NCBI GenBank assembly: GCA_036172665.1
Contig: JAYKNF010000016.1
Span: 248,001-312,000 of the forward strand
Direction of reading: 5' to 3'
Length of the DNA: 64,000 nt
DNA from: Prosopocoilus inquinatus
Lineage: Eukaryota > Arthropoda > Insecta > Coleoptera > Lucanidae
Each line of letters opens with the position of its first letter. The first letter of the stretch is position 1. Positions 8,097 through 64,000 of this stretch are shown piece after piece. Position numbers and translations under genes: made by a program. The notes beneath the pieces are model-generated. The model saw only the letters and a program-made list of their open reading frames with translations. It made no database searches and was not told where the DNA came from.

Positions 8097-8556
8097 TACT
8101 TTACCATAAAAATATAACCCACCCCCATTCAGGGGAAAAAGCTGGTGAGAAACCCAGCACAGACTTGTCACCAGGTTCAGCTAACATTAGAGGCTATTCG
8201 CTTTGCAGTAAATTCGGTGACAACCATTAGTATTTGATTTAGGAGAAACAGATAAAGACTTATAAAGTTTTTTTGCTGGATCTTTGCAGATCTTGATCCA
8301 AGTAAAGAATCAGCACCTTCATTTATCATTGTCTGACACATATGATAAAACAATAAAAGAATCCAAAAGTTTGTGATTTTGAGTTACTACATACGTCTAC
8401 TCTCCTGCGTATAAAATGAAAACAGATAAAAAACATAATTTATATTACGATAATCCTTATTAAGTCACGACCAAAGACTTAGTTAGGAAGTAAGTTGAAA
8501 ATCTAACGGGATATGGTCACTGGACGATTAGTAAAAGGCAACTCCTTTGTTTAAGG

Positions 8557-8595
8557 CCTCAATATTTCGTTGTATTTAACAACTTCATCAGGAGG
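8557..8595 (-). ncRNA. Minimal hammerhead ribozyme of Penelope family A (left arm)
   Basis: Read on the minus strand: stem I CCTC, core CTGATGA, stem II GTTGT/ACAAC with loop TAAAT, core GAAA, then TATT and GAGG closing stem I. All conserved core bases are present. Stem III is only the self-complementary AUAU with no loop, so activity would need a dimer. Very short stem III is the known form of Penelope-associated hammerheads. Confidence 0.8.
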
Positions 8596-8908
8596 TTTAC
8601 TATAAAGTTAACAAGAGGTTAAATAATCCAAATCTTAAGGTTACACTACTTACAACTAGAGATGGATGAATTGGTCAACAAATACAATCATTGAAGCCAC
8701 AATTGGGCTGTGATTACATGTTAAAATTACAAGAAAAATAAAAACGTCGTACTACGTTACTTAAGTCAGATATGTGCAAAAGAACAATGGCGGAATTGGC
8801 GGTAATTGTCAAAGCATCAAGTAACCAACTGAACAACTTAAGAAAACTAATTACCCTAAGTAATGAAATGAGGGAAGTTCATAAAAAAAAAATTAACTGA
8901 ATTGAAAA

Positions 8909-9337
8909 CTATTTTGATGAATTTTTTTTATTTTTAACGAACCTAAGAATATGAGCATAAATGTTGCTGATGTTGTCAATATCCGACCTGAAATTGACAG
9001 AATGTTCATTCTTTTGAATATGAATCATTTCTAAGAAAAGTCTGTTCTTTAGATTTTTTTCAAGGGTTAAAATGCTAGTATTGTCAAAATCAAATCGGTG
9101 ATCACTTTCCACAGCATGAGATGCCAAGGCACAAGCTACCTTCCCTGTTCTAATGTCGCTTTTATGTTGGGAAATGCGATTTTTTAACCATTGTCCCGTT
9201 TGTCCAATGTATTCTTTTTCGCAATCAGTACATGGTATTGAGTAAACTAGACCGCTGTTAAACAAAAAACGTGTCTTGTCCTTTGTTTTAGTGAAAACAC
9301 TATTGATAGTATGATTATTATATTGTACAATGTTCAA
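8909..9337 (-). pseudogene. Penelope-like GIY-YIG endonuclease domain
   Basis: The 142-residue frame contains SGLVYSIPCTDCEKEYIGQT, combining a GIY-like GLVY, the paired cysteines and YIG with the following Q-T-G and basic helix, then the H-rich segment SHAVESDHRFDF. These are the signatures of the Penelope C-terminal nicking endonuclease with its zinc-binding CCHH. The length covers the whole domain. It is separated from the upstream RT frame by stops and a frame change, so the element is inactive. Confidence 0.85.
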
Positions 9338-9350
9338 AAATTAAAAATCT

Positions 9351-9884
9351 TTAAAAATATTGATGACTATTACTTAGGGAGTTAATGTGTATTAATTTTA
9401 TGAATTTCCTATCATTATTGTTATCATCCAGATGACATGGCAATTTGGTGTTTTGGTAAATTAATCTGTAAGTTAATGCTTTGGGGAAACCATTATTAGT
9501 GAAAAGTTTGAATAGTTTATCTAAATTTTCTTTCAGAAAGACCGGATGACTAATATGAGTAACTCTGTTTTTCATTGAAATAATTACATTCATTTTTTGT
9601 TTCATTGTATGGCTAGAATGAAAATTAATATATCTGCCAGAGGCTGTTAGTTTTTGATACCAGTTTAGTCGTATACTCTGATCTTCCATTCTAATTACTT
9701 GTGTGTCAAGAAAAGGTACACTGTTATTTTTCTCTTCTTCAATAGAAAATTGATAATTAATTAATTTTTTTTTATGAACTTCCCTCATTTCGTTACTTAG
9801 GGTAATTAGTTTTCTTAAGTTGTTCAGTTGGTTACTTGATGCTTTGACAATTACCGCCAATTCCGCCATTGTTCTTTTGCACAT
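9351..9884 (-). pseudogene. Penelope-like reverse transcriptase, C-terminal part
   Basis: From about residue 45 the frame has NNSVPFLDTQV, RLNWYQKLTASGRYINF and HSSHTMKQK, the post-catalytic part of Penelope RT. The YxDD-bearing palm is absent. The first 40 or so residues are encoded by the inverted arm, which has the same frame at 8771-8900 on the plus strand, so the ORF start is a chimera of arm and element. The break falls exactly at the arm edge (9761). Confidence 0.8.
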
Positions 9885-10060
9885 ATCTGACTTAAGTAAC
9901 GTAGTACGACGTTTTTATTTTTCTTGTAATTTTAACATGTAATCACAGCCCAATTGTGGCTTCAATGATTGTATTTGTTGACCAATTCATCCATCTCTAG
10001 TTGTAAGTAGTGTAACCTTAAGATTTGGATTATTTAACCTCTTGTTAACTTTATAGTAAA

Positions 10061-10099
10061 CCTCCTGATGAAGTTGTTAAATACAACGAAATATTGAGG
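10061..10099 (+). ncRNA. Minimal hammerhead ribozyme of Penelope family A (right arm)
   Basis: This is an exact inverted copy of the left-arm motif: CCTC at 10061-10064, CTGATGA at 10065-10071, stem II, GAAA at 10088-10091, TATT and GAGG ending at 10099. It is antisense to the Penelope coding strand because the right arm is inverted. Confidence 0.8.
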
Positions 10100-10160
10100 C
10101 CTTAAACAAAGGAGTTGCCTTTTACTAATCGTCCAGTGACCATATCCCGTTAGATTTTCA

Positions 10161-12481
10161 TCTTATTTCATAATTTATATTCGCGTATAAATATTCAGAT
10201 TCTGCCGCTCACAAAATATCCGGTTTTTTTAACTGACAGTCATACTAACAGTTGTGGTTAGGTTGCAATTTCTTGTGATTTTGCTTGGCATTTTTTAGGT
10301 TAAGATTATCCGAGATCTGACACATTTAACAAAGCTCAAATTTCTACGAACTATTGATTTGATTCACTTACGAAAATTTTATGACGTAACTGCAAAGATC
10401 CAGCGAAAAGAGTATATAAATCGTGCGATAAATACGTAATTTTGACGACACGTTCTCTTATGTGTTTGTTCCCTCAATTCGAAAATAAGGCTCCAAGTCT
10501 ATTACGATGGATACTGGAAGATTTTCAACCTTATATCTTGACTATTGCGAAATTTCAAAAATTAATCATTTGTCCAAAATTGCAGTGCTCTTCGCCTTGT
10601 GTGAAGTTTACCGTTCTTTTTCATCTTTAAGCGCCCTACTTAATAAGATAAAGTTTCAATCCAGTTTTATTATTACTACTCATTTCTTTTTGAGTTTTAA
10701 AATAACATTGTGATTCAGGGTATTCGGACATCTTAAAATGAAGACATTTTACGGGTTTATCAGTTATTTATTTACCAATAACACAGCCCTACAATTTCTT
10801 TTTTTTCTGGTGCCTAAAGTGTTACACCTACACTTGACTATATTTGTTGTACTAATTCCAAAAAATTGAATCGGTTTTTCTCTATTAGGTATACTTTTTA
10901 AGATACAGCGCCACCAACTTAAAAACGGTTTTGCCATTCAACATAATTTTGTTTTTTTTACAGTTAAAATTAAATATAATAAGAATAAATAAAGTGATAG
11001 GTAGCAGCAAACGACATATTTGAGATAAAACCTTAAATATCTCCAGAAAATATTAGATTTAGGTACAAATGACAGAGTACAGAAAATATAGAATTTTACA
11101 GCCAATCCAAATTGCAAACTTACAACCAGCACTACTGTTTTGACACATTGAGTAGAGATGAAAATAATTTTATGTTGTAGACCTTTAAAATTCAAAACAA
11201 AAATATCTTAAAATTTTTTTTGTATCTTCAGTAGTTAGTGAGACACTGCCCTAGATCGCACTTTTGGGACATCCTGTATTTAATCACATCTTTTTAATTT
11301 TTATGCTTGATCAAAAATGCGGTGACGTAAATCAGGCTATTGTCATATTTGTCATAATATTCAAGAAAACAGAACGTTTATACGAAAACGGTTATTTATT
11401 CAGAGACTAAGGTGAATACGTCGTGTCTCGGAAGCTAGACCTCATAGACCAAACCTGATGATATTTTTTCAGTTCTGCATTCCAAAATTACGTAAGTATA
11501 CTTACAAAATCACAAGCACCAAAATGTGTGTTTATTATTTATTATAAACAGACAAACAAGTTTCACCTTAATAAGAATAAGAATATTACGAACACTCGAT
11601 ATTTTATAAACTAAATTTTCAAATGATTGCTGTTGAAGTAAGTGTTCATTAGAATCAAAATGTTGACAAATTAACTTCATAATCTAAACGCGTTTTATTT
11701 TCACACTTATGCATACTTATATCGAGCATTATCTTATTAATTCCATACATTATGCGGGGAATCATATCGACACAAAAATACTTATAATGTATTTGTTTTA
11801 AAACCTCGGGAATACTGTTTCCATACCTCGTTCTAATTTATTTTTTTCCTTGGACTCGTTCGAAAGACAGCTTTATTAAATCGATTTTTATTATGGGATA
11901 TACCATATGATTTTTTAAATTTTAGATAAAGGTTAGCCAAGAAATTTAATTTAAATTTAGCCGTAGAGGATAATAGTAGGAATAGCAGGAAAAGGCGAAA
12001 GGGCAAACCTACAATCAAAACTAAAGAAGTTATGGGAAATTCTACAGTAAATTTTTAATTATTGAGGTATTTAGCATAATATGTTTTGCTTTCCACTGCC
12101 TCCCTTTATCTAAAATTTAAGAAATCATACGGTATAGCTAACGAACTATTGCTTCAATTACAAGTATTATCCTCAACTCAACACCGAATTGCTTCTTTAG
12201 TTGTAAGCTTCACGGTTGTACACATCTGAATTTATTCTCACCGTTTCTGCAATATTCCGAAGGTCATGTCGGGAATAGATTGATTCTGAGATCTCCTCAG
12301 ACCTGGACCTTAAATGAAATCTTCTTCAGAGATATGTCGGTTTCGCAACGCTTGCTCAATGACCAATCACTGACATTGAAAAGAAAAGTGATTTTTTAAC
12401 CTCCTCAATGAGAGCTTCCAGATTTAATTTCAGTCGAAAAAAAAATCATACTCAAAATAAATTGAACTGCGTAGATAGGTA
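10161..12481. other. AT-rich stretch without recognisable genes
   Basis: Only short frames occur. GGGACATCCTGTAT near 11269 resembles the end of a TA-targeting insect DNA transposon, but I could not find its partner terminus with confidence. A short segment near 12250-12310 shares the diverged motif GGGAATAG...TCTGA...CCTCAGACC with the AGGTCA repeat at 13.6 kb. Confidence 0.45.
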
Positions 12482-13541
12482 TACCGCGTGGAAAGTTTCA
12501 AACCCGAACATAGCAAACTATTAAAGAAAAGAGAAAATTATGGACAATATTATGGTGTTAAAATTATTCCTAAATATTAATACTTTCGGAATATAAATAA
12601 AATTTTCAAATTTTAATCAAAAAATTTAGTCGCCTAATGTCAGGTTTGAAACTTTCAGTTGTTTCAATTAATGGAAAATAATTTATACGTCAGTCAAAAA
12701 GTATTATGAATTATTGTACAGACCAGATAATAGGTAGGTACTTTTATCGCTTAAGTTACAACAATTCTTTCTTTATTAGAATGATAAATGTATTCTATGT
12801 CATTGCATACAAAAATACTGTTGTTTCTGATACTATCAATAAACTTGAAATGATGCCATGGGCAATCAATACCGACACATGTCAATACTAAATTAGTTTT
12901 AAATTCAGTTGTACTAAGAATTAAATAGGTTTCACACTGTTCAAGAATAAGTAACACACAACTGTAAAGAATATTAAAAAAAAAAAACATCAATTCCACA
13001 AATCCAGTTGCCATCAACATTGTATTGAAATTATCAAGAATAGTAGGAAAGTATTTTGTGAAGCAATGCAGGAGCAAAGAAATAAATCCTAACATTTTTT
13101 TATCGTCAGTATGCTACACAGATGGATGGAATTTTATTTCGAATAAGAAACATATTGTACAAAATTCTGGTTACTGAATTGCAAACTTCAAATCTGACAT
13201 ACTAAGGCGACTACATTTTTCATTTTAAATAAAAAAATTGATTTCTATTTCAAAAGTATTAACACAAGAGGAATAATTTTAACACGAAAACATTGGCCCT
13301 AATTTTATCTTTCATTTAATACCATTACCATTTTTGTATCTTTAAATGGCGAGCAGCAATCTACAAAAACGTATTTAGAAAAATTTTATGCAAATCGTTT
13401 TTTATTGCAGCATTAACTTACAGATTGCAGCCTCTGTACAGCTGTTTCAGCCCTGCTTGTCGCTATTCTATCTGTTCATTACAAAAACGTAGTTCTCAAT
13501 GGAACTTTGCTATGTTCGGGTTTGAAACTTTCCATCCGGTA
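12482..13541. mobile_element. Non-autonomous DNA transposon (TACCG ends, TA duplication)
   Basis: The ends TACCGCGTGGAAAGTTTCAA (12482) and its complement (ending 13541) form 36-bp inverted repeats that finish at the motif CCCGAACATAGCAAA, flanked by TA. A second inverted pair lies inside (about 12531-12640 against 13190-13320), so the element is largely foldback. I see no transposase; the frames at 12706-12891 and 12751-13095 overlap on opposite strands and match nothing I know. A retrozyme fragment with its own target duplication is nested near the right end. Confidence 0.7.
13374..13479. mobile_element. Retrozyme fragment (106 bp) with 12-bp TSD
   Basis: TACAAAAACGTA flanks it exactly (13362-13373 and 13480-13491). 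The insert begins TTTAGAAAAATTTTATGCAAATCG and ends CTATTCTATCTGTTCAT, the two standard ends of the 312-bp repeat family. Inside, the repeat runs in one orientation to CCCTGCTTG and then flips. The GAAA half of the hammerhead remains (TTTCAGCCC, minus sense) but the CTGATGA half is lost at the flip. Confidence 0.8.
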
Positions 13542-13825: not shown

Positions 13826-14107
13826 ACTAAAACAGTTTAGAAAAACTAGAACTAATTGAAAAATAGAAAAAATAATTAGAAAATAACGAAATGAAATACG
13901 TTTTATTAAAAATAATTTTTACAGAGGTGAAATAAGTTACAGCTGGGGTAGGTAAGTTTTAGGAAATATTAAATACAAATTTTGAATAAGGCGGTGTATA
14001 TTATAATTAAATATACCTCTGGGTTATTTACTGCTTTATGTATTTCCAAAGATTCTAATAAATATGGTTTCCGAACTTTGTTTGCCAAATGTAAAAATGT
14101 TATGAAC

Positions 14108-14772
14108 AGATAAAATAGCGACATCTTACGATCGCTTTTCGACCTGACATTGCAGTAGGATAGACAAATTGAAGCGGATTTGCTCCTAATAAGTCCCCCA
14201 TGCAAGGCGGTCATGCTTGCTGTCAAAGCATAATGAAAGTTTTAAAAAAATTTTGTGCAAATCGTTTTTGAATGCAGTGAAAACCACAAGCAGCCTCTGT
14301 ACGGCTGTTTCAGCCCTTCTTTGGGCTTCGTCAGCAGAGACGTAGCTCGACATTCCCACTGCATACAAAAATGACTTGTCCAATTTAATCGCAATTGCGA
14401 TGTAAGAGTGATGAACAGATAAAATAGCGACATCTTACGATCGCTTTTTGACCTGACATTGCAGTAGGATAGACAAATTGAAGCGGGATTTGCTCCTAAT
14501 AAGTCCCCCATACAAGGCGGCCATGCTTGCTGTCAAAGTATAATAAAAGTTTTTTAAAAAAATTGTGCAAATCGTTCTTGATTGCAGCGAAAACCTCGAG
14601 CAGCCTCTGGACAGCTGTTTCACCCCTGTTTGGGGAGCAATTTTTTTTTTAAACTGTCATTATGCTTTGACAGCAAGCATGGCCGCCTTGCATGGCCGCT
14701 TCAATTTGTCTATCCCACTGCAATGTCAGGTCAAAAAGCGATCGTAAGATGTCGCTGTTTTATCTATTCATC
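14108..14772. mobile_element. Retrozyme cluster, two partial monomers then an inverted one
   Basis: It starts ATGAACAGATAAAATAGCGAC. The unit recurs from 14410, then turns orientation near 14640 and ends at TTTTATCTATTCATCGC. Both outer ends are of the same kind, and no target duplication is visible, unlike the five TSD-bounded copies, so this copy is probably rearranged. The hammerhead at 14293-14341 is the best preserved part. Confidence 0.75.
14293..14341 (-). ncRNA. Retrozyme hammerhead (CTGACGA variant)
   Basis: Minus-strand order: GTCTCTG, CTGACGA, AGCCC-loop-GGGCT, GAAA, CAGCCGTA, CAGAGGC. Position 7 of the core is C, which is allowed in CUGANGA. Stem I pairs over seven positions with one wobble. 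Stem III has one mismatch and the cleavage triplet is GTA, so activity is uncertain. Confidence 0.65.
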
Positions 14773-18362: not shown

Positions 18363-18935
18363 TCAAATCTGGAACCGTTCTGTCAATATCGCGTCGACAA
18401 TTTCTTTCTTCTTGCGTATAATAAGTCCGTCATCAACATAAAGTGCAAGAAATACAACCTCATTTTGAATAACTGCTTTGAAAACACATTTATCTGCATC
18501 AAGTTCCTTAAATTTGAAGATCCTTAGAAATTCAGTATATTTCTTATTCCAGCACCTAGGAGATTGCTTTAGACCATACACACTTTTGCGTAATCTGCGT
18601 ACCAAATCTGGATTGTTGGTTTTAAATCTGTCTGGTTGTTTCATGTAGATTTCCTCTTCTAAATACCCATATAGGAAAGTAGTCTTTACATCGAACTGGC
18701 AAATTTCCATATCATTTACAGTAGCCAATGTTAAAAGTACTCGAATAGATTCGTATCTAACTACGGGCGAAAAATTTTCATGATAATCAATACCTTCTTT
18801 TTGCAGAACACCTTTCGTACAAGGTCGAGTTTGTATCGATCTATTAACCCATCGACTTTTCGCTTGATTCTGTATACCACTTGCAATCAATGACTCTGCG
18901 ATTATTTGGTAATTCTTCCAAATCCCTTGTTTCAT
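18363..18935 (-). pseudogene. Ty1/copia reverse transcriptase
   Basis: The 190-residue frame has ENFSPVVRYESIRVLLTLA, CQFDVKTTFLYGYLEEEIYM, SVYGLKQSPRCW and the catalytic LYVDDGL, in the order expected of copia RT. The thumb and connection continue in the next frame. It is part of a minus-strand copia remnant spanning 17490-19560. Confidence 0.9.
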
Positions 18936-19560
18936 TAGGTTTCAAAGATTCCATTTCTTCTGCTTCGTGCCAGTTTTCAGCATCGTCACTGGAAATTGCT
19001 TGAGCATATGTTTGTGGCTCTTCCCGAAGTACTGCTAAACAAGATAATTGTTGATTTATACCATACTGAGATGGTGGTTGAAGAGTATTTCTGTTTCGTA
19101 GTTTTCGACCTTCAACCTGTGGTTCCTCTTCTCTTTCCACTTCTTCTATTTCATCTTCATTTATATCTGCAACTTGCTCATATATTCTTTCATCTAATTG
19201 CTCAGCTTCTTTCTCAACTGAAAAGTCATACAATTGGATTCTGTGTCCTTAAAATCAACGTTGCTACCTTTATTAAATACGGCGTCTCTTCTGACTGTGA
19301 CTCTTGACATTTTTTGTTCTAAAACACGATAATTAGAACTGTCTTCATCATAGCCGAGAATAATTTTGTTTGATTTGCTTGCAAATTTGGATCTGAACTG
19401 CTTTGGCGTATGTACACACACTTCAGAACCAAAACCTTTTCAAATGATCAATTTTACTTGACTACAGTTCATATGGTATTTTCTTGTCTAAAACTCGAGG
19501 ACGACAATTTAGAACGTAAACACAAGCATTGACAGCTTCTGCCCATAACATTGGTTCCAG
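18936..19560 (-). pseudogene. Ty1/copia integrase end and integrase-RT linker
   Basis: WAEAVNACVYVLNCRP (about 19480-19550) is the end of the copia integrase core. HTPKQFRSKFASKSNKIILGY follows (19.19-19.42 kb), then an acidic linker ending in EAEEMESLKPNETRDLEELP, the usual lead into copia RT. The N-terminal half of integrase is cut off at about 19560, where retrozyme sequence begins. Confidence 0.8.
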
Positions 19561-19577
19561 TTTTGCTGAAATAATCA

Positions 19578-20134
19578 AGTAGGGCTGAAACAGCTGTCCA
19601 GAGGCTGCTCGAGGTTCTCACTGCAATCAAAAACGATTTGCACAAAATTTTTGTAAAAACTTTCATTATGCTTTGACAGCAAGCATGGCCGCCTTGCATG
19701 GGGGACTTATTAGGAGCAAATTCCATTTCAATTTGTCTATCCCGCTTCAATTTGTCTATCCTACTGCAATGTTAGGTCAAGAAGCGATAGTATGATGTCG
19801 CTATTTTATATGTTCATCATTCTTACATCGCATTTGCGAATAAATTGGGCAAGTCGTTTTTGGTCTGCAGTGGGAATGTCGAGCTACGTTTCTGCTGAAG
19901 AAGCCCCAAGCAGGGCTGAAACAGCTGTCCAGAGGCTGCTCGAGGTTCTCACTGCAATCAAAAACGATTTGCACAAAATTTTTCTAAAATCTTTCATTAT
20001 GCTTTGACAGCAAGCATGGCCGCCTTGCATGGGGGACTCATTAGGAGCAAATCCCGCTTCAATTTGTCTATCCTACTGCAATGTTAGGTCAAAAAGCGAT
20101 AGTAAGATGTCGCTATTTTATATATTTAACGATT
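19578..20134 (+). mobile_element. Retrozyme array, about 1.8 monomers
   Basis: Starts at GGGCTGAAACAGCTGTCC, that is, inside the hammerhead, joined to the copia remnant. It then runs through one full monomer (the repeat of GGGCTGAAACAG is at 19913) and ends at GTCGCTATTTTATATATTTAACG. One duplicated block (CCATTTCAATTTGTCTATCC) lies near 19723. No TSD is found because the left end is truncated. Confidence 0.8.
19888..19936 (+). ncRNA. Retrozyme hammerhead (CTGAAGA variant)
   Basis: GTTTCTG, CTGAAGA (19895-19901), AGCCC CAAGCA GGGCT, GAAA, CAGCTGTC, CAGAGGC. Stem II is perfect, stem I pairs over seven positions with two wobbles, and the cleavage triplet is GTC. Core position 7 is A, which the hammerhead consensus allows. 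Confidence 0.8.
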
Positions 20135-20890
20135 ATTGTTTCTGATCCGAGCTCGCACTAGTAAATGTTTTACTTTAAGAATTTTCTTTTACCTAACGAA
20201 AATAAAAAGTGGCCTACTGGAATGCTAGATATCATGAATGACTTATTTATTTATACAGTTTTGCGCATGTACAGTGCCAGAACTACACTAACTTAGGTTG
20301 GGAAAATCAGAGCAAACCTTTCTCTAAAAAGTTTGTACTTCTTGCTATCTTACCTCTGTACAACTCATATTGTAACTTTTTGGAGAATAAATACTATTAT
20401 TTTATTATTATTATTTGAAAGTATAAATTCACCTGTTCACTATGAAAATCTAATTTTTCGTAAAATAATGGTGTAGCAGGAATGTGTTTGAAAACTGTGT
20501 GTTTATGAACGTGTCTTCCAAACTTATCAATAGTCATTGTGAATCAATCAACAACTATGTGAAACTGAAATATGTGCTCGCTTGTACTCTACTAAATACT
20601 AGAGTTTACAAAATAATCTTTGCCTCTTTTAATTCTTTAATGATCGCTGTGATTTCTAGCTTCGCGCCCACCAAACGTTTGGTGGTTTTCTCTGAATTAT
20701 TGGTTTTATAATATTTACGTATTTAAATCCTGGGCTTGCAATTATTCGCCCTGAGGGAATTATAATTAACTTTAAAGACACTAAATTTACGTTTCACGGT
20801 GTACGAGGCTACAGAGATACATTGAGAGGAAAAATGTATTTCTATAGTCTAGGTCTAATACATCGTGAAACGTACATTTCTCCGTTTTTT
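20135..20890. other. No recognisable gene; small inverted repeat
   Basis: AT-rich sequence with an ATT microsatellite near 20395. An inverted pair TTTACGTTTCACGGTGTA (about 20789) and TACATCGTGAAACGTACATTT (about 20858) forms a loose hairpin. I recognise no reading frame. Confidence 0.4.
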
Positions 20891-27242: not shown

Positions 27243-28543
27243 TAAAAAGTTTATTTTACTTAAAAATACTTACTGTTAAATTGGCAGAAAAAAGAATACA
27301 AGAAAAACAGATCTTGAAAAAATAGAGTATCATCCCACAGATCTGTTAATTAGCAAAGAAGAAAGAGCACTTATCAGTAGCTTAATTGAACAAGTAACTT
27401 GTGATATTGTCCCAGCTAAATGTCTCCTTTTATACCAGACAAGTTTAAGGTAAACCTTCTAAAACTACACGTAAGAAATTGTGTAATACGTTATTCCAAA
27501 TTATCATTATAATATGTTCAAATTTGTATAAGTTCAAATCGAACACGCTCGTAATAGGTTTTTTTTATTAATTATTTTTATAACATCCTGTTTCCATTCA
27601 CAGTAGAAGTAAAAGAGGTAGGATGGGGGGAGACTGGGCGGGGCTTAGTGGGCGGTGGGCGGAGTTTAGTGGGCACTAACCTTTCCTCTTTTCTTCTTTC
27701 CTAATTCTTTCCTCCCTTTATCTTCTTTTTTTCCTTACTTTCTCTTCTTTTTTTTCCTTCTTGACTTCAGTTACTTTCAGAAAATTTCGTAGTAACTATA
27801 GAATAATAATCTTTATTCGCAAAAATATTTTGAAATCAGACTTGTAAGTGTCACACAGTTTAAAGATACACATTTGAAATATGCGTTTCGCGAAAATATA
27901 ACTTCATGTAACAGTCTGCCCCTAATTCTTATTTCTAAGAAGATTCCATATTGTGTTAATTTAAAGTTTTACATTCTTAAAAAATTATCTTACTCCTTTG
28001 TAAACCCACACTAAGCTGAACGATAGAGTAGAGAAAGACTGATTACGACTGATAAGAATATTACACTTAAACGTATTCAATACAAATTTTGAACTTTAAA
28101 ATCGATGGTGAATGCTCATAAATATGTTAATTAATTATTATTACGTAATCTTTTTTGCTAGAATGGCCTGCTTTAAAACGTATTTACTTTTATTTATTTA
28201 AAATGGTATTTTCATTCATCCAGAACTCGGAATACATAAGTAAATTTAGTAGTAGTATGTATAATTAATCGACGTTTGCTTTCAAATGTGTTTGTTTTTT
28301 CTGTCACATAATCTCTTCTTCACGACGGGAACGGTGAGTGAATTTAAATTCTTAAATTGATCGACAAAAATTAGTCGCCTTTCTGATTTAGTTTATTGTA
28401 TAATAATTTAATATAGATCAATTCTTGCTATAAAATTTTTAACGCTGCACAGTGAAAACAATTTTTGCGAGTTTTACGCCGTAAAAATTCGCAAATTTGA
28501 CACGTTTGAAAGTTCAATCCAATAAAGCGATACTTTCAAAGAC
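27243..28543. other. No gene; contains a short G-rich block with GGGCGG repeats
   Basis: At about 27625-27680 GGGCGG occurs three times within TAGTGGGCGGTGGGCGGAG and nearby TTAGTGGGC repeats, next to a TC-rich stretch (27690-27770). The remainder is AT-rich without supported frames. Confidence 0.45.
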
Positions 28544-28554
28544 ATAAAAATATG

Positions 28555-29153
28555 AAAAATTTTGTTGCAAATCGTTTTTGATTGCAGTACAGCTGTTTCA
28601 GCCCTGTTTGGGGCTTCATCGGCAGAGTCGTAGCTCGACATTCCCACTGCAGACCAAAAACGAGTTATCCAATTTATTCGCAATTACGATGTAACAGTGA
28701 TGAACAGATAAAACAGCGGCATCCTACGATCGCTTTTTGACCTGACATTGCACAAGGATCGACAAATTGAAGCGGATTTGCTCCTACTGCAATGTCAGGT
28801 CAGAAAGTGATCGTAGGATGTAGCTGTTTTATCTACTCATCACTACTACATCGCAATTGCGAATAAATTGGACAAGTTGTTTTTGGTCTGCAGTGGGAAT
28901 GTCGAGCTACGTCCCTGCTGATGAAGCCCCAAACAGAGCTGAAACAGCTGTACACAGGCTGCTCGAGGTTTTCACTGCAATCAAAAACGATTTGAAACAA
29001 AATTTTTTAAAACATTCATTATGTTTTGACAGCAACCATGGCCGCCTTGCATGGGGGATTTATTAGGAGCAAATTCGCTTCTTTTTTGTCTATCCTACTG
29101 CAATATCAGGTCAAAAAGCGATCGTAGGATGTCGCTGTTTTATCTGTTCATCA
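28555..29153. mobile_element. Retrozyme insertion, inverted pair, with 11-bp TSD
   Basis: ATAAAAATATG flanks it (28544-28554 and 29154-29164). The left part runs AAAAATTTTGTTGCAAATCG to GAAGCGGATTTGCTCC, then flips at about 28785 into the opposite orientation and ends TTTTATCTGTTCATCA. The minus hammerhead near 28590-28628 has CCGATGA and a lost stem I. The plus one at 28911-28959 keeps CTGATGA and GAAA but has mismatched stem I. Confidence 0.8.
28911..28959 (+). ncRNA. Degenerate retrozyme hammerhead
   Basis: CTGATGA (28918-28924), AGCCC CAAACA GAGCT, GAAA, CAGCTGTA, CACAGGC. The core is intact, stem II has one mismatch and stem I two, so efficient cleavage is unlikely. Confidence 0.6.
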
Positions 29154-29359
29154 ATAAAAATATGTTAAGCTAAACTTGACAGCAAGACTTAATGTAAATA
29201 GTTTAATAACGCAATGTATTTCTAAATTCTCTCTTAAATTTACATACTTAAATCCTTAAATTGATTGATAAAAATTATTGTGCTATTCGGGAATATTTGA
29301 ATTTAAGAATTTAAAAATGTACGAATTTAAGCTAAAGAAAGCTTTAAAAGAAGGAGTTA

Positions 29360-41655: not shown

Positions 41656-43065
41656 CGTTGCATCATTGAGGGGCGCGTCATTAAAATTCTTAAGATAAGT
41701 AGTCGATTTACACTTCCGCTACAAAACTAAATTAAAAATCTTTAAATTTCGAAATAAGAAAGTAAAACGCAGTTCGCTTGCAATTTTGCAATAATAATAG
41801 GTTCGTTTTGTACTTTTTCGCATAAGAAATTTTACTTGTAATTAAGATTAGTAAGTATGGTAGATCAGAAGCAATGTCAGCAAAATTCTTCGAACAATAA
41901 CTGAACGACGTAATTTTACATTAGGACAGGTCAGGAGAAAAATGAAATACTTTTCTCTGCAAAAAAAATTGTTTATTTATTTATTTCTCTAAATGAAAAG
42001 CTGAAAAAGTCCAAAGACGCCCCTTTAAATTCATTTTATTTAGAAAATGTCTTAACAAAAGTTGTGTAGATTTTTATTCTGCATAATTTAAAATTCCTTT
42101 CAAATTTAGATGTTGTTCATTTAATATACAATTAATATACACAGTAGGGCAAAAGTATGGAACCGGCTTAATATTTGGAAAACTGTTTGACGTATCTGTT
42201 TGAAATTTGGTATGTCATTTAGAGTCAATAAGACGTACTTTACCAATTTCTCTCAATTGTTTATCTGCTCTTGTTTCTGAGATCCAATGCCTACTTGATT
42301 TTTTTTAAATGACAACCTGTTGATTTTTTTCCTGTATTTAATAGCTCGTTTAATTCTCTAAACGACTAGATAAAAATATTTATCTATTACATAAGAAAAT
42401 TTTCGAGAAAATAACGTTTAATAAAAAAGTTAAGAAAAGTGGTCTAATGTTTGATATTCGACAAAAATATTAGTTTTAGCAAAAAACTAGAAGGCCACAA
42501 GATTATGGGTTGCTTTTAAGATAGAACTAATGCAAACTTCAATAAAAGTTATTTTAAAAATATGAAAACAAATATGGGAAAGGACAAAAGCATGGAACCG
42601 GCTTAATATTTCGAAAACTGTTTGACCTATCTGTTTGAAATTTGGTGTGTGATTCAGAGTCAATTGGACCTATATTACCAATTTATTTCAATTGTTTATC
42701 TGCTCTTGTCTCTGAAATCCAACGCCTACTTGATTTTTTTTTTAATGACAACCTGCTAATTTTTTTCCTTTATTTAATAGGTTAATTCTTTAAACAACCA
42801 CATAAAAATATTTATCTATTACATAAGAAAATTTTCGAGAAAAAAGCATTTGAATGAAAAAAGGTAGGAAAAATGAACATATAAAATAGCGACATCTTAC
42901 TATCGCTTTTTGACCTAACATTGCAGTAGGATAGACAAATTGAAGCGGGATTTGCTCCTAATGAGTCCCCCATGCAAGGCGGCCATGCTTGCTGTCAAAG
43001 CATAATGAAAGATTTTAGAAAAATTTTGTGCAAATCGTTTTTGATTGCAGCGAGAACCTCGAGCA

Positions 43066-43114
43066 GCTTCTGGACAGCTGTTTCAGCCCTGCTTGGGGCT
43101 TCTTCAGCAGAAAC
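43066..43114 (-). ncRNA. Retrozyme hammerhead
   Basis: Minus strand: GTTTCTG, CTGAAGA, AGCCC CAAGCA GGGCT, GAAA, CAGCTGTC, CAGAAGC. Stem I pairs over seven positions with one wobble. Stem II is perfect. The cleavage triplet is GTC. Stem III is 2 bp with an AGCU loop, or 4 bp if it pairs between two molecules. Confidence 0.85.
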
Positions 43115-43377
43115 GCAGCTCGACATTCCCGCTGCAGACCAAAAACGACTTGCCCAATTTATTCGCAATTGCGATGTAAGAATGATGAACATATAAAATA
43201 GCGACATCTTACTATCGCTTTTTGACCTAACATTGCAGTAGGATAGACAAATTGAAGCGGGATTTGCTCCTAATGAGTCCCCCATGCAAGGCGGCCATGC
43301 TTGCTGTCAAAGCATAATGAAAGATTTTAGAAAAATTTTGTGCAAATCGTTTTTGATTGCAGCGAGAACCTCGAGCA

Positions 43378-43426
43378 GCTTCTGGACAGCTGTTTCAGCC
43401 CTGCTTGGGGTTTCTTCAGCAGAAAC
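43378..43426 (-). ncRNA. Retrozyme hammerhead (one stem II change)
   Basis: Same as 43066-43114 except that the first stem II base pair is changed (GGGGTTTC on the plus strand in place of GGGGCTTC). Core, stem I and cleavage triplet are intact. It lies 312 bp from its neighbour, which is the length of the predicted RNA circle. Confidence 0.8.
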
Positions 43427-43936
43427 GTAGCTCGACATTCCCGCTGCAGACCAAAAACGACTTGCCCAATTTATTCGCAATTGCGATGTAAGAATGATGA
43501 ACATATAAAATAGCGACATCTTACTATCGCTTTTTGACCTAACATTGCAGTAGGATAGACAAATTGAAGCGGGATTTGCTCCTAATGAGTCCCCAATGCA
43601 AGGCGGCCATGCTTGCTGTCAAAGCATAATGAAAGATTTTAGAAAAATTTTGCTGAAACAGCTGTCCAGAAGCTGCTCGAGGTTCTCGCTGCAATCAAAA
43701 ACGATTTGCATAAAATTTTTCTAAAATCTTTCATTATGCTTTGACAGCAAGCATGGCCGCCTTGCATGGGGGACTCATTAGGAGCAAATCCCGCTTCAAT
43801 TTGTCTATCCTACTGCAATGTTAGGTCAAAAAGCGATAGTAAGATGTCGCTATTTTATATGTTCATCATTCTTACATCGCAATTGCGAATAAATTGTGCA
43901 AGTCGTTTTTGGTCTGCAGCGGGAATGTCGAGCTAC

Positions 43937-43985
43937 GTTTCTGCTGAAGAAGCCCCAAGCAGGGCTGAAACAGCTGTCCAGAAGC
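43937..43985 (+). ncRNA. Retrozyme hammerhead (inverted unit)
   Basis: GTTTCTG 43937-43943, CTGAAGA 43944-43950, AGCCC CAAGCA GGGCT, GAAA 43967-43970, CAGCTGTC, CAGAAGC ending 43985. Intact. Because the array contains both orientations, either strand transcribed gives at least one ribozyme. Confidence 0.85.
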
Positions 43986-44509
43986 TGCTCGAGGTTCTCG
44001 CTGCAATCAAAAACGATTTGCACAAAATTTTTCTAAAGTAGGAAAAATGGTTTATTGTCTTATATTCGACAAAAATTCTAGTTTTAACAAAAAAAACTGG
44101 AAGACCACCACAAAGCAGCGCTAAAGAAAATTTTAATAAAAATTGCCTTAAAAACATGAAAACAAATACCAAATATCACCGTAAATCATTTTTTCTAACT
44201 TTTTCCTTCAAACATTATTTTCTCTAAAAATTTTTTATGCAATAGATAAATATTTTTATGTGGTCTTTTAAAGAATTAAACGAACTATTAAATAGAGGAA
44301 AAAAATTAACAGGTTGTTATTTAAAAAAAAATCAATTAGGCATTGGATCTCAGAAACAAGAGCAGACAAACAATTGAAACAAGTTGGTAATGTAGGTCCT
44401 ATTGACTCTGAATCACAGCAAATTTCAAATAATTACGTCAAACAGTTATAGGAATATTAAGCCGGTTCCATACATTTGCCTTTCCCTGTATAACTTTCTC
44501 ATTTGATTT

Positions 44510-44731: not shown

Positions 44732-45131
44732 AAACTGCAAATAAAAAAGTCAGCTACTGTAGCGGCTTTATGTATACTTTATTGCAATTTCGGTTAGCCC
44801 TTGAAGAGACGATAGAAATGATATAACATGTTACTTATACAGTGTGTCCCAGATTGAGTAGGCTACCATAGGTAACTTTCTTATTAGGGAAGATAGAGAT
44901 TTGGTTAAATGGGCAATATCTTGGAGCCTTATGTGCTATTTCCGATGCCGTTGAGAAAAGAAAATGCTATTTAATCGTGTAAAAATTCAATATAGCGTCC
45001 ATTTAAAATTATAAAGTTGCTATCAATATCTTGAAAGTCGCCATCTTGAATTTTATTTTGTCTTGACTTTCGACTGAATTTTATCAAACCTAGTAACTTT
45101 TATATCAAACTTTTTTTCATATTTTTTATAA

Positions 45132-45626
45132 ACAGATAAAATAGCGACATCTTACTATAGCTTTTTGACCTGACATTCCAGTAGGATAGACAAATTGAAG
45201 CGGGATTTGCTCCTAATAAGTCCCCCATGCAATTAGAAAAATTTTTCTAAAAACTTTCAAAGTCAAAGTCTTTGTCAAAGTATAATGAAAGTTTTTAGAA
45301 AAATTTTTCTAAAAATTTTCATTATGCTTTGACAGCAAGCATGGCCGCCTTGCATGGGGGACTTATTAGGAGCAAATCCCGCTTCAATTTGTCTATCCTA
45401 CTGCAATGTCAGGTCAAAAAGCGATAGTAAGATGTCGCTATTTTATCTCTTCATCATTCTTACATCGCAATTGCGAATAAATTGGGCAAGTCGTTTTTGG
45501 TCTGCAGTGGGAATGTCGAGCTACGTCTCTGCTGAAGAAGCCCCAAGCAGGGCTGAAACAGCTGTCCAGAGGCTGCTCGAGGTTTTCACTGCAATCAAAA
45601 ACGATTTGCACAAAATTTTTCTAAAA
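45132..45626. mobile_element. Retrozyme insertion with perfect 13-bp TSD
   Basis: ATATTTTTTATAA at 45119-45131 and 45627-45639 is identical. The insert starts ACAGATAAAATAGCGAC, flips near 45240-45305 through a short AGAAAAATTTTTCTAAA palindrome cluster, and ends GCACAAAATTTTTCTAAAA. One nearly complete monomer in the plus orientation carries an intact hammerhead. Confidence 0.9.
45525..45573 (+). ncRNA. Retrozyme hammerhead (stem I C-G variant)
   Basis: GTCTCTG 45525-45531, CTGAAGA 45532-45538, AGCCC CAAGCA GGGCT, GAAA 45555-45558, CAGCTGTC, CAGAGGC 45567-45573. Relative to the 43-kb copies, stem I position 3 is C instead of U and its partner is G instead of A: a compensatory pair change. 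Confidence 0.85.
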
Positions 45627-46119
45627 ATATTTTTTATAATTACAAAGTTATTAGACATTACAGAAAATAGCGATTTTCAGTTTTTCTGCGATAATATTGG
45701 AACTATTCGGAATTTTCAAATTTTCTCAACGGCATCTGAATTAGCACATAAAACTGCAAAATATTGCCCATTTAACTAAAACTCTATCTTCGCTAATAAG
45801 AACGTTACCCATGGTAGCCTACTAAATCTGGGACACACTGTATTTTTAATACTTACCGTGTTATTTTTAATTTTATGCAAAAAATGGGTCATATTTGATC
45901 GTCTGCCAAATTGTCAATTTTAATGAGACGACAATCGCTGGTATAGACTGATGTGTTTTGCACACTAGTAAATTAGTAAAAAAAAAATTCAATTACACCT
46001 GAGTTTCTAAATAATTATTTTACGTAATGGTTATTTATAGATGTGCAAAGTTCCATTTTAAGTGCACGAAATCCTAAAGCCGCATCCAAACTAATAAAAA
46101 TGTAGCGCTTCCTAGGACA

Positions 46120-53165: not shown

Positions 53166-53428
53166 AAGGATAATAACAAAAATGACAGTCTTTTTCTATT
53201 AATTATAAAAAATAAACCCAACAAAGTATATATTTTTGAAAACAGAAAAAAAAATCTCTATTTAATGAGGGCTTGCCTACTATGATTTCCATTTAAAAAA
53301 AAACACTACATTATGTTATATCTCGAAAATTTAAGTAAATATTAAAAAATCAACTACACCACTGAATTGTATTCTAAAAAGTGTCCTAATAATGGTCAAG
53401 CAGTTTTTTAATATCTCTAGATATAAAC

Positions 53429-53529
53429 AGATAAAATAGCGACAACTTACAATCGCTTTTTGACCTGACATTGCAGTAGGATAGACAAATTGAAGCGGGA
53501 TTTGCTCCTAATAAGTCCCCCAAAATTTT
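53429..53529. mobile_element. Smallest retrozyme insertion (101 bp) with about 13-bp TSD
   Basis: TCTAGATATAAAC (53416-53428) and TCTAGATGTAAAC (53530-53542) flank it with one difference. It keeps only the end AGATAAAATAGCGAC, the body to AAGTCCCCC, then jumps to AAAATTTT. No hammerhead. Both standard family ends are present although two thirds of a monomer is gone. 53166-53415 to its left has nothing recognisable. Confidence 0.8.
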
Positions 53530-53740
53530 TCTAGATGTAAACGAGATATGACCGAAAAACGAAAAGTCCAAAAATTGCAATTTTTGCCTATAACTTGAAA
53601 ACAAAAGAAGATAGCCTATTTTTGTTTACACTTTTGACTTAATCTCCAAAAAAGAGATCGAGACTTGGCCACTAGTTTTTTTCTATCTCTTATAATAACG
53701 GAGATGCCCATAAGAGACATCGAAATTAATCCACCCTGTT

Positions 53741-53797
53741 CAGAGGCTGCTCTAGGTTTTCACTGCAATTAAAAACGATTTGCAACAAAATTTTATT
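53741..53797 (+). repeat. Retrozyme fragment starting at the ribozyme cleavage position
   Basis: It begins CAGAGGCTGCTCTAGG, whose first base is the first nucleotide after the predicted hammerhead cut, and runs to GCAACAAAATTTTA. A fragment beginning exactly there would fit insertion of a cleaved linear RNA; one example could be chance. Confidence 0.55.
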
Positions 53798-54811: not shown

Positions 54812-54906
54812 TTCAAAACTATCATTATTGTCAATGTTTAAAGTTGTTTATCGTTTAACTAATTTCATATTGCTAGATACGTAAGAAATGTTATTAAATA
54901 TTTGAT

Positions 54907-55205
54907 TGCAGTGAAAACCTCGAGCAGCCTCTGTACTGGTTTTTCAGCCCTATTTAGAGTTACTTCACCAGAAACGTAGCTCCGAAAACGATTTGATCAA
55001 CTTATTTCGAGCTACGTTTCTGCTGAAGTCACTGCAGTCAAAAACGATTTGCAATAATTTTTTTTAAACTTTCATTATGCTTTGACAGTAAGCATGGTCG
55101 TCTTGCATGGGGAACTTATTATTTAGCAAACCCGCTTCAATTTGTCTATCTTACTGCAATGTCAGGTCAAAAAATGATCGTAGGATGTCGCTGTTTTATC
55201 TATTC
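54907..55205 (+). mobile_element. Retrozyme fragment, rearranged
   Basis: It begins TTGATTGCAGTGAAAACC, passes a damaged hammerhead region (ACTTCACCAGAAACG, no CTGATGA), flips near 55000 and ends ATGTCGCTGTTTTATCTATTC. No clean TSD. It lies between the virus-like ATPase and PLA2 frames. Confidence 0.7.
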
Positions 55206-55266
55206 AATAAATTTATATTCAGATAGAGAATTGTCGCTTAAAAAATCACGTGGTATTTTTATTAGA

Positions 55267-55648
55267 ATGAAGTGCTATTTAGGAGACAGATTATTAAATA
55301 CGGCTATCAATAATTTATCATTCGAACTACACATGCCTAGCTACAGATTTTGTGGACCCGATACTAAACTTCAGAAATGTCTGGCACACGGTGACAGCGG
55401 TATAAACGGTTTGAATGACGCCTGCAAGGAACACAACGTAGCATATTCTCAAGAAAAAGACATAAAACGTAGACACGTGGCAGATAATATGTTATATAAT
55501 AGTGCAACGGAACGATTTCGATCTGAAAGACTCTTCTTGGGGGTGAAAAAGCGACAGCATTAGGAGTAGCAGGAGCCATGAAAGTAAAATTAGGATTGGG
55601 ATTAACGAAGAAAACAAATCATGAAAAAAATATTAACGAATTAAATTA
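55267..55648 (+). pseudogene. Virus-like phospholipase A2 domain remnant
   Basis: The frame has a calcium-loop-like YRFCGPDTK and the catalytic helix segment LNDACKEHNVAYSQ, where the His-Asp pair of the family reads His-Asn. The layout is that of the parvovirus VP1/adintovirus PLA2, which lets capsids leave endosomes. A frameshift near 55545 moves the Gly-rich tail to another frame, ending near 55648. The changed catalytic Asp and the shift make it inactive. Confidence 0.65.
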
Positions 55649-61690: not shown

Positions 61691-61807
61691 CTTCAGTCAT
61701 TGCTCGAAGAAGAATTTTGCTGACATTGCTTCTGAAATACCACACCTACTAATCTTAATTACAAGCAATATTTCTTATACAAAAAAGTACAAAACGAATC
61801 TATTATT

Positions 61808-62551
61808 AAAAAATTTTGTTGCAAATCGTTTTTAATTGCACTGAAAACCTCGAGCAGCCTCTGTACAGCTGTTTCAGCTCTGTTTGGGGCATCATCAGCA
61901 GAGACGTAGCTCGACATTCCCACTGCAGACCAAAAACGACTTATCCAATTTATTCGCAATTGCGAAGTAATAGTGATGAACAGATAAAACAGCGACATCC
62001 CACGATCGCTTAAACAGCTGTACACAGGCCGCTCGAGGTTTTCACTGCAATTTGCAACAAAATTTCTTAAAACTTTCATTATGCTTTGACAGCAAGCATG
62101 ATCGCCTTCATGGGGGACTGATTAAGAGCAAATCCGCTTCAATTTTTCTCTCACAATTACATTGCAATTATCCGCTTCAATTTTTCTATCACTATTACAT
62201 TGCAATTGCGAGACTGTTCGAGATTTTCACTGCAGTCAAAAACGATTTGCAACAAAATTTCTTAAAACTTTCATTATGCTTTGACAGCAAGCAAATCCGT
62301 TTCAATTTGTCTATCCTACTGCAATGTCAAGTCAAAAAGCGATGGTATGATGTCGCTGTTTTGTCTGTTCATCACTATTACATCACACTTGCCAATAAAT
62401 TGGATAAGTCGTTTTTGGTCTGCAGTGGGAATGTCGAGCTACGTCTCTGCTGATGAAGCCCCAAACAGGACTGAATCAGCTGTACAGGGGCTGTTCGAGG
62501 TTTTCACTGCAGTCAAAAACGATTTGCAACAAAATTTTTTAAAACTTAAGT
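61808..62551. mobile_element. Retrozyme cluster, several partial units, inverted ends
   Basis: It begins AAAAAATTTTGTTGCAAATCG and ends with the complement (CAACAAAATTTTTT), so both ends are of the same type; no TSD is found. A minus unit (61808-62010) is joined to three shortened plus units. One hammerhead on the minus strand keeps its core; the plus one at 62443-62491 has GAAT for GAAA. Confidence 0.75.
61857..61905 (-). ncRNA. Retrozyme hammerhead, stem II weakened
   Basis: Minus strand: GTCTCTG, CTGATGA, TGCCC CAAACA GAGCT, GAAA, CAGCTGTA, CAGAGGC. Core and stem I are intact, stem II has two mismatches, and the cleavage triplet is GTA. Confidence 0.65.
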
Positions 62552-63827: not shown

Positions 63828-64000
63828 TAAGAACAGATAAAACGGCAAATTCAGCTGGGCTGCAATTTCTCTTGACGAGACAGACGAATTTTAGTATTTG
63901 TAATCATGTAAAATTTTTACAAAATTTTGTTGCAAATCGTTTTTGATTGCAGTGAAAACCACGAACAGCTGATTCAGCCCTGTTTGGGACTTCTGTACAG
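63828..64000. mobile_element. Retrozyme fragments at the window end
   Basis: GAACAGATAAAACGGCAAATTC at 63832 is the ACAGATAAAA end. After unrelated sequence, AAAATTTTGTTGCAAATCG at 63921 starts a minus unit whose hammerhead region (ATTCAGCCCTGTTTGGGACTTC) has lost CTGATGA. The unit is cut by the window edge. Confidence 0.65.

Follow-up and report, generated by a model that had tools for sequence, protein, structure and literature searches.

Animal retrozymes are an established class of elements, as described in the consulted portions of PMC7229834, PMC7761336 and PMC11722881. According to the sections of PMC7229834 considered here, the metazoan non-LTR retrozymes consist of tandem, non-coding monomers of 170-400 nt with a type I hammerhead and a G+C content below 45%; their copies show duplications longer than 4 bp, and a Penelope-like element is present in the same genome. 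The enzyme that moves animal retrozymes and the genomic copying of an RNA circle without a 3' end are open questions in the field. Penelope elements, and also LINEs, have been proposed as helpers, and in these sections the proposal of a Penelope helper rests mainly on co-occurrence and on the type I hammerheads present in both kinds of element (PMC7229834). Inverted pLTRs and duplications of 8-10 bp mark Penelope insertions, and a tail is attached to one inverted copy (PMC3846280, consulted in part). When purified, a Penelope protein cut both strands of the target and extended them, and copying was initiated within its own RNA at two sites that bound the tail (PMC11167929). More distant are the plant LTR retrozymes (PMC4918200; features after excerpts of PMC7229834 and PMC7761336), which are likewise bounded by hammerheads, non-coding and provided with a circular RNA stage (predicted for the repeat described here), but carry a type III hammerhead, LTRs with a primer-binding site and a polypurine tract, 4-bp duplications and a unit of about 700 nt.

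Organization of the array

The analysis covered one continuous stretch of 64,000 nucleotides, hereafter the window. At positions 42873-43652 Tandem Repeats Finder detected a period of 312 bp (2.5 copies, 99% matches), in agreement with an earlier note on this DNA, which had described a tandem 312-bp repeat. As a whole, the array (42876-44037, locus E) is not the simple tandem array of that note; it consists of two head-to-head arms with the hammerhead sense pointing outward on both sides, and the tandem arrangement holds within the left arm. This arm (42876-43652, minus strand) comprises 2.49 monomers and ends on the outside at monomer position 309, which can be placed anywhere from 309 to 312, since the letters CAT are common to the arm and the duplication. 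The right arm (43653-44037, plus strand) has the opposite orientation, comprises 1.23 monomers and has its outer end at monomer position 171. Both arms share 1 nt at their junction, which is not a palindrome. The perfect 12-bp target-site duplication reported earlier was found again: GTAGGAAAAATG (plus strand, 42864-42875 and 44038-44049) occurs exactly twice in the 64-kb window, just outside the array, and is absent from the reverse complement.

The array has a G+C content of 43-44% and its longest open stretch does not exceed 103 codons. No ORF of 150 aa overlapping the array was found, and the repeat thus lacks the ORF for reverse transcriptase (RT) and GIY-YIG endonuclease of a Penelope-like element. 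The region of the junction (43584-43780) would form a long RNA hairpin if it were transcribed. Several microRNA families listed by Rfam over head-to-head junctions all stayed below their gathering scores and were rejected, as the long inverted repeat explains them.

Hammerhead motifs

Type I hammerhead motifs were located with a descriptor that demands CTGANGA, a stem II with at most one mismatch, GAAA, a stem III in which A-U is followed by one or more further pairs, a NUH triplet and a stem I of at least 4 bp. At locus E, two motifs lie on the minus strand of the left arm (43059-43123, CTGANGA at 43107, predicted cut after 43073; 43371-43435, CTGANGA at 43419, predicted cut after 43385), and one lies on the plus strand of the right arm (43928-43992, CTGANGA at 43944, predicted cut after 43978). 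Stem II, which had been called perfect in each intact monomer, is so at 43107 and 43944 but has one mismatch at 43419. Stem I was previously given seven positions; here it is drawn as 5 bp, an internal loop and then 6 bp. Stem III is drawn as 2 bp (A-U, C-G) closed by an AGCT/AGCU loop, and this loop belongs to the palindrome ACAGCTGT.

Altogether the descriptor found six sites in the window (14334-, 19895+, 43107-, 43419-, 43944+ and 45532+), and a control set of 20 random first-order Markov sequences, each as long as the window, contained two sites in total. A looser motif with at most one mismatch, which was written after sight of the sequence, gave 10 sites in the window and none in 100 shuffles; at eight of these 10, the stem III palindrome is intact. 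Since 43107 and 43419 are the only two of these 10 sites on the same strand of the same locus, only the left arm of locus E could release an RNA of unit length; the two predicted cuts are 312 nt apart. Not every repeat fragment in the window carries a hammerhead motif.

Rfam gave no match in the 64-kb window at the gathering cut-off, and a permissive scan of the whole window listed no hammerhead. When short stretches with six copies were scored with RF00163 (Hammerhead_1, gathering cut-off 34 bits), the three copies of locus E reached 30.6 bits (43067-43113, motif 43107-), 28.1 bits (43379-43425, motif 43419-) and 30.6 bits (43938-43984, motif 43944+ of the right arm). The copies at 19895+ (locus C, 23.8 bits) and 45532+ (locus F, 25.8 bits) were also below 34 bits, and the copy at 28918 (locus D) gave no match. 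In a longer scored stretch, the copy of the right arm of E was listed only as Hammerhead_HH9 (17.9 bits). Hence, five of the six scored copies match at 23.8-30.6 bits and none at the cut-off, which speaks against the retrozyme reading; the earlier note had named scores below threshold in all copies as the outcome that would contradict it, and for these six copies this is literally the result. The scores are not decisive, since all five matching copies carry CTGANGA, GAAA and GTC and the published survey relied on motif descriptors and not on this cut-off.

In all five copies tested, the hammerhead fold was 7.6-10.6 kcal/mol worse than a competitor that pairs part of the core, with an energy model that gives no credit to core contacts. 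As the competing fold scores better, the predicted cleavage of monomers may be slow. Amphibian hammerheads with a stem III as short cut efficiently only as dimers, according to the consulted part of PMC7229834. The hammerheads of amphibian satellites and of the axolotl retrozyme (PMC7229834, same part) also have the very short stem III and the palindromic loop in common with ours, but their sequence differs, and dimer-dependent cutting is a feature described for the amphibian ones.

Two stretches (28555-29153 and 61806-62544) putatively represent a second retrozyme subfamily, with CTGATGA and the cut triplet GTA instead of CTGAAGA and GTC, and locus B combines features of both subfamilies. Scans for the hammerhead motif in viral contigs and genome contigs and for the terminal motif in viral contigs gave no matches in records from which the genome of the window itself is possibly absent.

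Copies in the window and class assignment

A blastn search of the window with the monomer 43185-43496 (minus strand) as query yielded copies or fragments in nine further stretches, and the repeat is indeed dispersed as proposed earlier. Three of the copies share the plan of locus E, with head-to-head arms inside an exact duplication. These are locus A (13374-13479; blastn 13374-13459), which has two short arms between the 12-bp copies of TACAAAAACGTA (13362-13373 and 13480-13491) and ends at monomer positions 171/312 (left/right), locus D (28555-29153; blastn 28533-29153) with an 11-bp duplication ATAAAAATATG (28544-28554 and 29154-29164) and ends at 166/314, and locus F (45132-45626; blastn 45128-45637), which carries an intact hammerhead at 45532 (+), a 13-bp duplication ATATTTTTTATAA (45119-45131 and 45627-45639) and ends at 308/172. 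In the same notation, the ends of locus E are 309/171.

Four further loci also have head-to-head arms, with boundaries set by eye. No clear duplication was seen at locus B (14102-14771; blastn 14089-14771; ends 312/312; 7 shared letters), at the degraded locus H (54880-55206; blastn 54866-55231; ends about 164/311) and at the rearranged locus I (61806-62544; blastn 61802-62544; ends 170/172). At locus G1 (53429-53529; ends 304/165) the duplication is imperfect, with 7 exact letters and 12 of 13 by eye. The blastn stretch containing G1 (53423-53794) was split by eye into two insertions, the second of which, G2 (from 53736), is a single arm ending near 165. Locus C (19561-20137, plus strand) is likewise a single arm with about 1.8 monomers and an intact hammerhead at 19895; no duplication was found next to its ends, and its right end lies at about 319, which equals position 7 of the next monomer. 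A last fragment (63903-63994) touches the edge of the window and was left out of the end scoring.

Other kinds of sequence lie between and beside these copies. Locus C is located near a Copia-type RT frame (18363-18941, RVT_2), and an open frame adjoining locus H (55204-55563) encodes a phospholipase A2-like domain (PF08398, 37.1 bits). Transposase DDE_Tnp_1_7, RNase H and integrase zinc-binding domains were also detected in the window; with RVT_2 and the relative of the Penelope-like element described below, they suggest that the DNA comes from an animal, probably an insect.

Taken as a whole, the repeat is best read as an animal (metazoan non-LTR) retrozyme, because it comprises dispersed, non-coding repeats of about 300 bp with 43-44% G+C, a type I hammerhead, duplications longer than 4 bp and a Penelope-like element nearby. 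The monomer of 312 bp lies within the 150-450 bp used as a criterion for retrozymes, the low G+C content and the non-coding character agree with the class, and so do the type I hammerhead motifs in the monomers and the dispersed copies with duplications longer than 4 bp where these are present. Of the earlier assignment, the class remains the best reading, with matching features and motifs above chance, and the simple tandem plan does not hold. For the retrozymes of PMC7229834 expression and cleavage have been demonstrated; for the present repeat both are predicted. The consulted sections of that paper contain no description of head-to-head arms with two fixed outer ends as found here. In open-licence literature, mostly at the level of titles and the openings of abstracts, neither retrozymes inserted head to head nor a comparison between the ends of retrozymes and the start sites of Penelope elements came to light. 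The element belongs to a known class, and its insertion pattern is a testable lead on its mobility.

Duplications, outer ends and junctions

Exact duplications of 11-13 bp were present at 4 of the 10 loci examined, and the other six show 5-7 letters; by locus, the longest shared word has 13 letters (F), 12 (A, E), 11 (D), 7 (B, G1), 6 (H, I) or 5 (C, G2). When 36-nt stretches of the window were paired at random, a shared word of at least 11 letters occurred at a rate of 0.0017 and one of at least 12 at 0.0007. All eight outer ends of A, D, E and F fall at monomer positions 166-172 or 308-314, with one of each kind at every locus (4/4). Unlike ends were found at six of the eight two-arm loci; B and I have like ends, which speaks against the explanation we prefer. 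At G1 and H, 2 and 6 outer letters, respectively, stayed unaligned in the end mapping. Under equal odds, the chance of unlike pairing is 0.06 for 4/4 and 0.14 for 6/8 or more. The fixed end positions are the firmer result, and the pairing of unlike ends needs more loci; all these counts come from one 64-kb window.

The short duplications, the head-to-head arms and the two types of ends, which the retrozyme insertions share with a Penelope-like insertion in the window, are most simply accounted for by one enzyme type that primes cDNA from each cut strand. We consider it reasonably probable that the repeat is a 312-nt, non-coding, non-autonomous metazoan retrozyme whose RNA is copied by a Penelope-type enzyme from two internal sites, one per target strand. 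Alternatively, machinery of the LINE type (non-LTR) might move the retrozyme by twin priming, in which priming on the RNA also occurs from the second target strand, so that the insert becomes head-to-head. Twin priming is known from L1 work; L1 copying begins in a poly(A) tail at the 3' end, and the position of the twin-primed point is variable. Such a process would produce the outward orientation and the duplications observed, LINEs have been named as possible helpers beside Penelope elements (PMC7229834, in part), and the retrozyme shows no sequence link to the local Penelope-like element. At the four loci with exact duplications, however, both outer ends are fixed and internal, and no poly(A) was found at the outer ends of A, D, E and F, so that we regard this alternative as unlikely.

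The inner junctions vary. In addition to the 1 nt shared at E, about 2 nt are shared at A, about 5 at D and about 2 at G1 (the latter three by eye); these four junctions are non-palindromic, and that of F is a palindrome. This bears on a variant in which the retrozyme is again moved by a Penelope-type enzyme, and a single cDNA primes itself and thereby creates the head-to-head form; self-priming on an antisense template has been proposed for Penelope, and palindromes have been reported at inverted Penelope junctions (PMC3846280, in part). The palindrome at F would fit. Self-priming should, however, give like outer ends on both arms, and A, D, E and F carry unlike ends; together with the non-palindromic junctions of E, A, D and G1, this makes self-priming a quite improbable origin of the arms, and snap-back copying was rejected as the general cause of the head-to-head form.

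The monomers of locus C differ from each other by 3.6% in the lobe 2 part, and one of them differs from E by 0.7%, which does not agree with rolling copying of one circle, and contributions from template switching or from linear multimers are conceivable. The arms of locus D differ by 8.8%, which could be explained by age alone.

Predicted fold of the monomer

Folded as a circle, the monomer reached -107.8 kcal/mol, in comparison to a mean of -74.7 kcal/mol (sd 5.1, lowest -86.4) for 100 dinucleotide shuffles. The predicted circle consists of lobe 1, a rod with the hammerhead (about 28-159), and lobe 2 (about 182-297), joined by an open loop. Both outer-end sites fall in this predicted loop, one at the 5' foot of lobe 2 and one at the 3' foot. 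The unpaired probability at the end sites is mostly above the mean of about 0.35, with dips to 0.3 in E and C and to 0.1 in B1. At locus D, a local hairpin follows monomer position 166 in the predicted fold.

In lobe 1, 94.5% of the cells pair in ten copies, and sliding the partners by 1-3 columns reduced pairing to about 33-45% (35.5-44.9% for lobe 1). Two pairs of lobe 1, one in the rod (54-134) and one in stem I (73-117), are changed on both sides, and both double changes set the three E copies apart from the other copies. The covariation score of lobe 1 was reached by none of 500 shuffles and the number of pairs changed on both sides by 332 of 500, so that covariation lends slight support to the predicted fold. 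In lobe 2 (14 rows, 13 distinct), 94.0% of the cells pair and no pair is changed on both sides. A strand-specific wobble test gave no significant excess of substitutions favouring pairing in the hammerhead strand (19 vs 14, p = 0.49).

These data also bear on a reading in which the repeat passes through no RNA stage, being a DNA element of satellite-like or fold-back type with relic hammerheads. In favour of it, there are inverted arms and tandem monomers, and the Rfam scores lie below the cut-off. Against this stand the two outer ends, which are not inverted copies of each other, the variable inner junctions, the dispersed loci with their own duplications, the motifs above chance, and the two pairs that keep the stem I and rod pairing through change, even if their number is not above that in shuffles. 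Such an origin appears highly improbable, and the identities of satellite DNA and fold-back DNA transposon were rejected.

A Penelope-like element as candidate helper type

A broken Penelope-like element with head-to-head arms lies at 8447-10168 between the copies of a 13-bp duplication CATAATTTATATT (8434-8446 and 10169-10181) and represents the candidate helper type. Its arms (8483-8896 and 9761-10173) form a 414-bp inverted repeat with 98.8% identity, and a tail of 41 nt (8447-8487) is present on the left arm only. With inverted pLTRs, a short duplication and a one-sided tail, the element conforms to the published plan. A GIY-YIG domain (PF01541) was detected at 8912-9340 on the minus strand (26.5 bits, cut-off 22.6). 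The ORF upstream of this domain had no Pfam match, and by eye we take it to be the Penelope RT. As candidates for a minimal hammerhead in the pLTRs, CTGATGA..GAAA with complementary CCTC/GAGG was seen by eye at 10065 (+) and 8591 (-); Rfam found no hammerhead at 10030-10180.

Only one relative among 12 candidates was above threshold, a GIY-YIG protein of 177 aa with 55% identity over 69% of the query. Its record names a Wolbachia endosymbiont of the weevil Pissodes strobi as the source, but the protein seems to be a piece of a Penelope element from the insect host that was binned with bacterial DNA. Scans with a peptide pattern of the Penelope protein matched 8 stretches in viral contigs and 104 in genome contigs, none of which was confirmed.

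Like the retrozyme insertions, the local Penelope-like element has head-to-head arms within a duplication in the range of 11-13 bp and shows two alternative fixed ends, and in both, one end includes an extra segment and the other does not (about 140 nt in the retrozyme, 41 nt in the local Penelope-like element). Endonuclease-bearing Penelope-like elements in general also show head-to-head arms, short duplications and two alternative ends (PMC11167929; PMC3846280, in part), but the repeat differs from them in lacking an ORF of 150 aa and in its fuller hammerhead with a stem III. These Penelope-like insertion scars on retrozyme copies hint at the machinery that may copy them. Two results speak against the parallel: the 41-nt tail forms a hairpin when folded alone, but this hairpin is absent from the best fold of a 180-nt stretch, and in each of nine comparisons of retrozyme and Penelope end sequences 52 or more of 200 shuffles reached the observed score, so that no shared sequence was detected.

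A stretch of 18 nt of locus A (13409-13426) matches positions 9463-9480 in the Penelope-like ORF (E = 0.004; two matches of this kind were obtained). It is a possible but weak sign of template switching and was dropped as evidence, since it is partly retrozyme sequence.

Proposed mechanism

From the observed repeats, motifs, arms, ends and duplications, and from the predicted fold, we infer the following course of transcription, cleavage, circularization and enzymatic insertion. In read-through transcripts of an array like the left arm of E, the type I hammerheads would cleave the RNA into units of 312 nt, probably acting in pairs joined through the palindromic stem III. By analogy to the published family, these RNAs would then be closed into circles. 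The target would be opened by a Penelope-type protein that possesses RT and GIY-YIG endonuclease. Its cuts in the two strands would lie 11-13 bp apart, and copying would begin inside the RNA at two fixed sites, the feet of lobe 2, with one strand starting near position 171 and the other near 312. Both cDNAs would run inward, sometimes over more than one round of the template, and join at variable points, which would result in a head-to-head insertion within a target-site duplication. In the experiments with the purified Penelope protein, no difference between the two strands was seen in the choice of the start site (PMC11167929), and this speaks against one site per strand.

With an internal start, a circle would be a usable template. 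It is conceivable, albeit rather doubtful, that a Penelope-type RT inserts from closed circular RNA with no need of a 3' end, starting at both feet of one lobe with one foot per cut strand, and that lobe 2 mimics the Penelope tail in structure and not in sequence. If this were true, each insertion would record both start points.

Significance

Insertion scars offer a sharper test of the helper, which can be applied to existing genomes: two fixed, unlike ends that flank one lobe of the RNA. If the pattern holds, retrozymes would be natural probes of the choice of start sites by Penelope enzymes and of copying from circular RNA.
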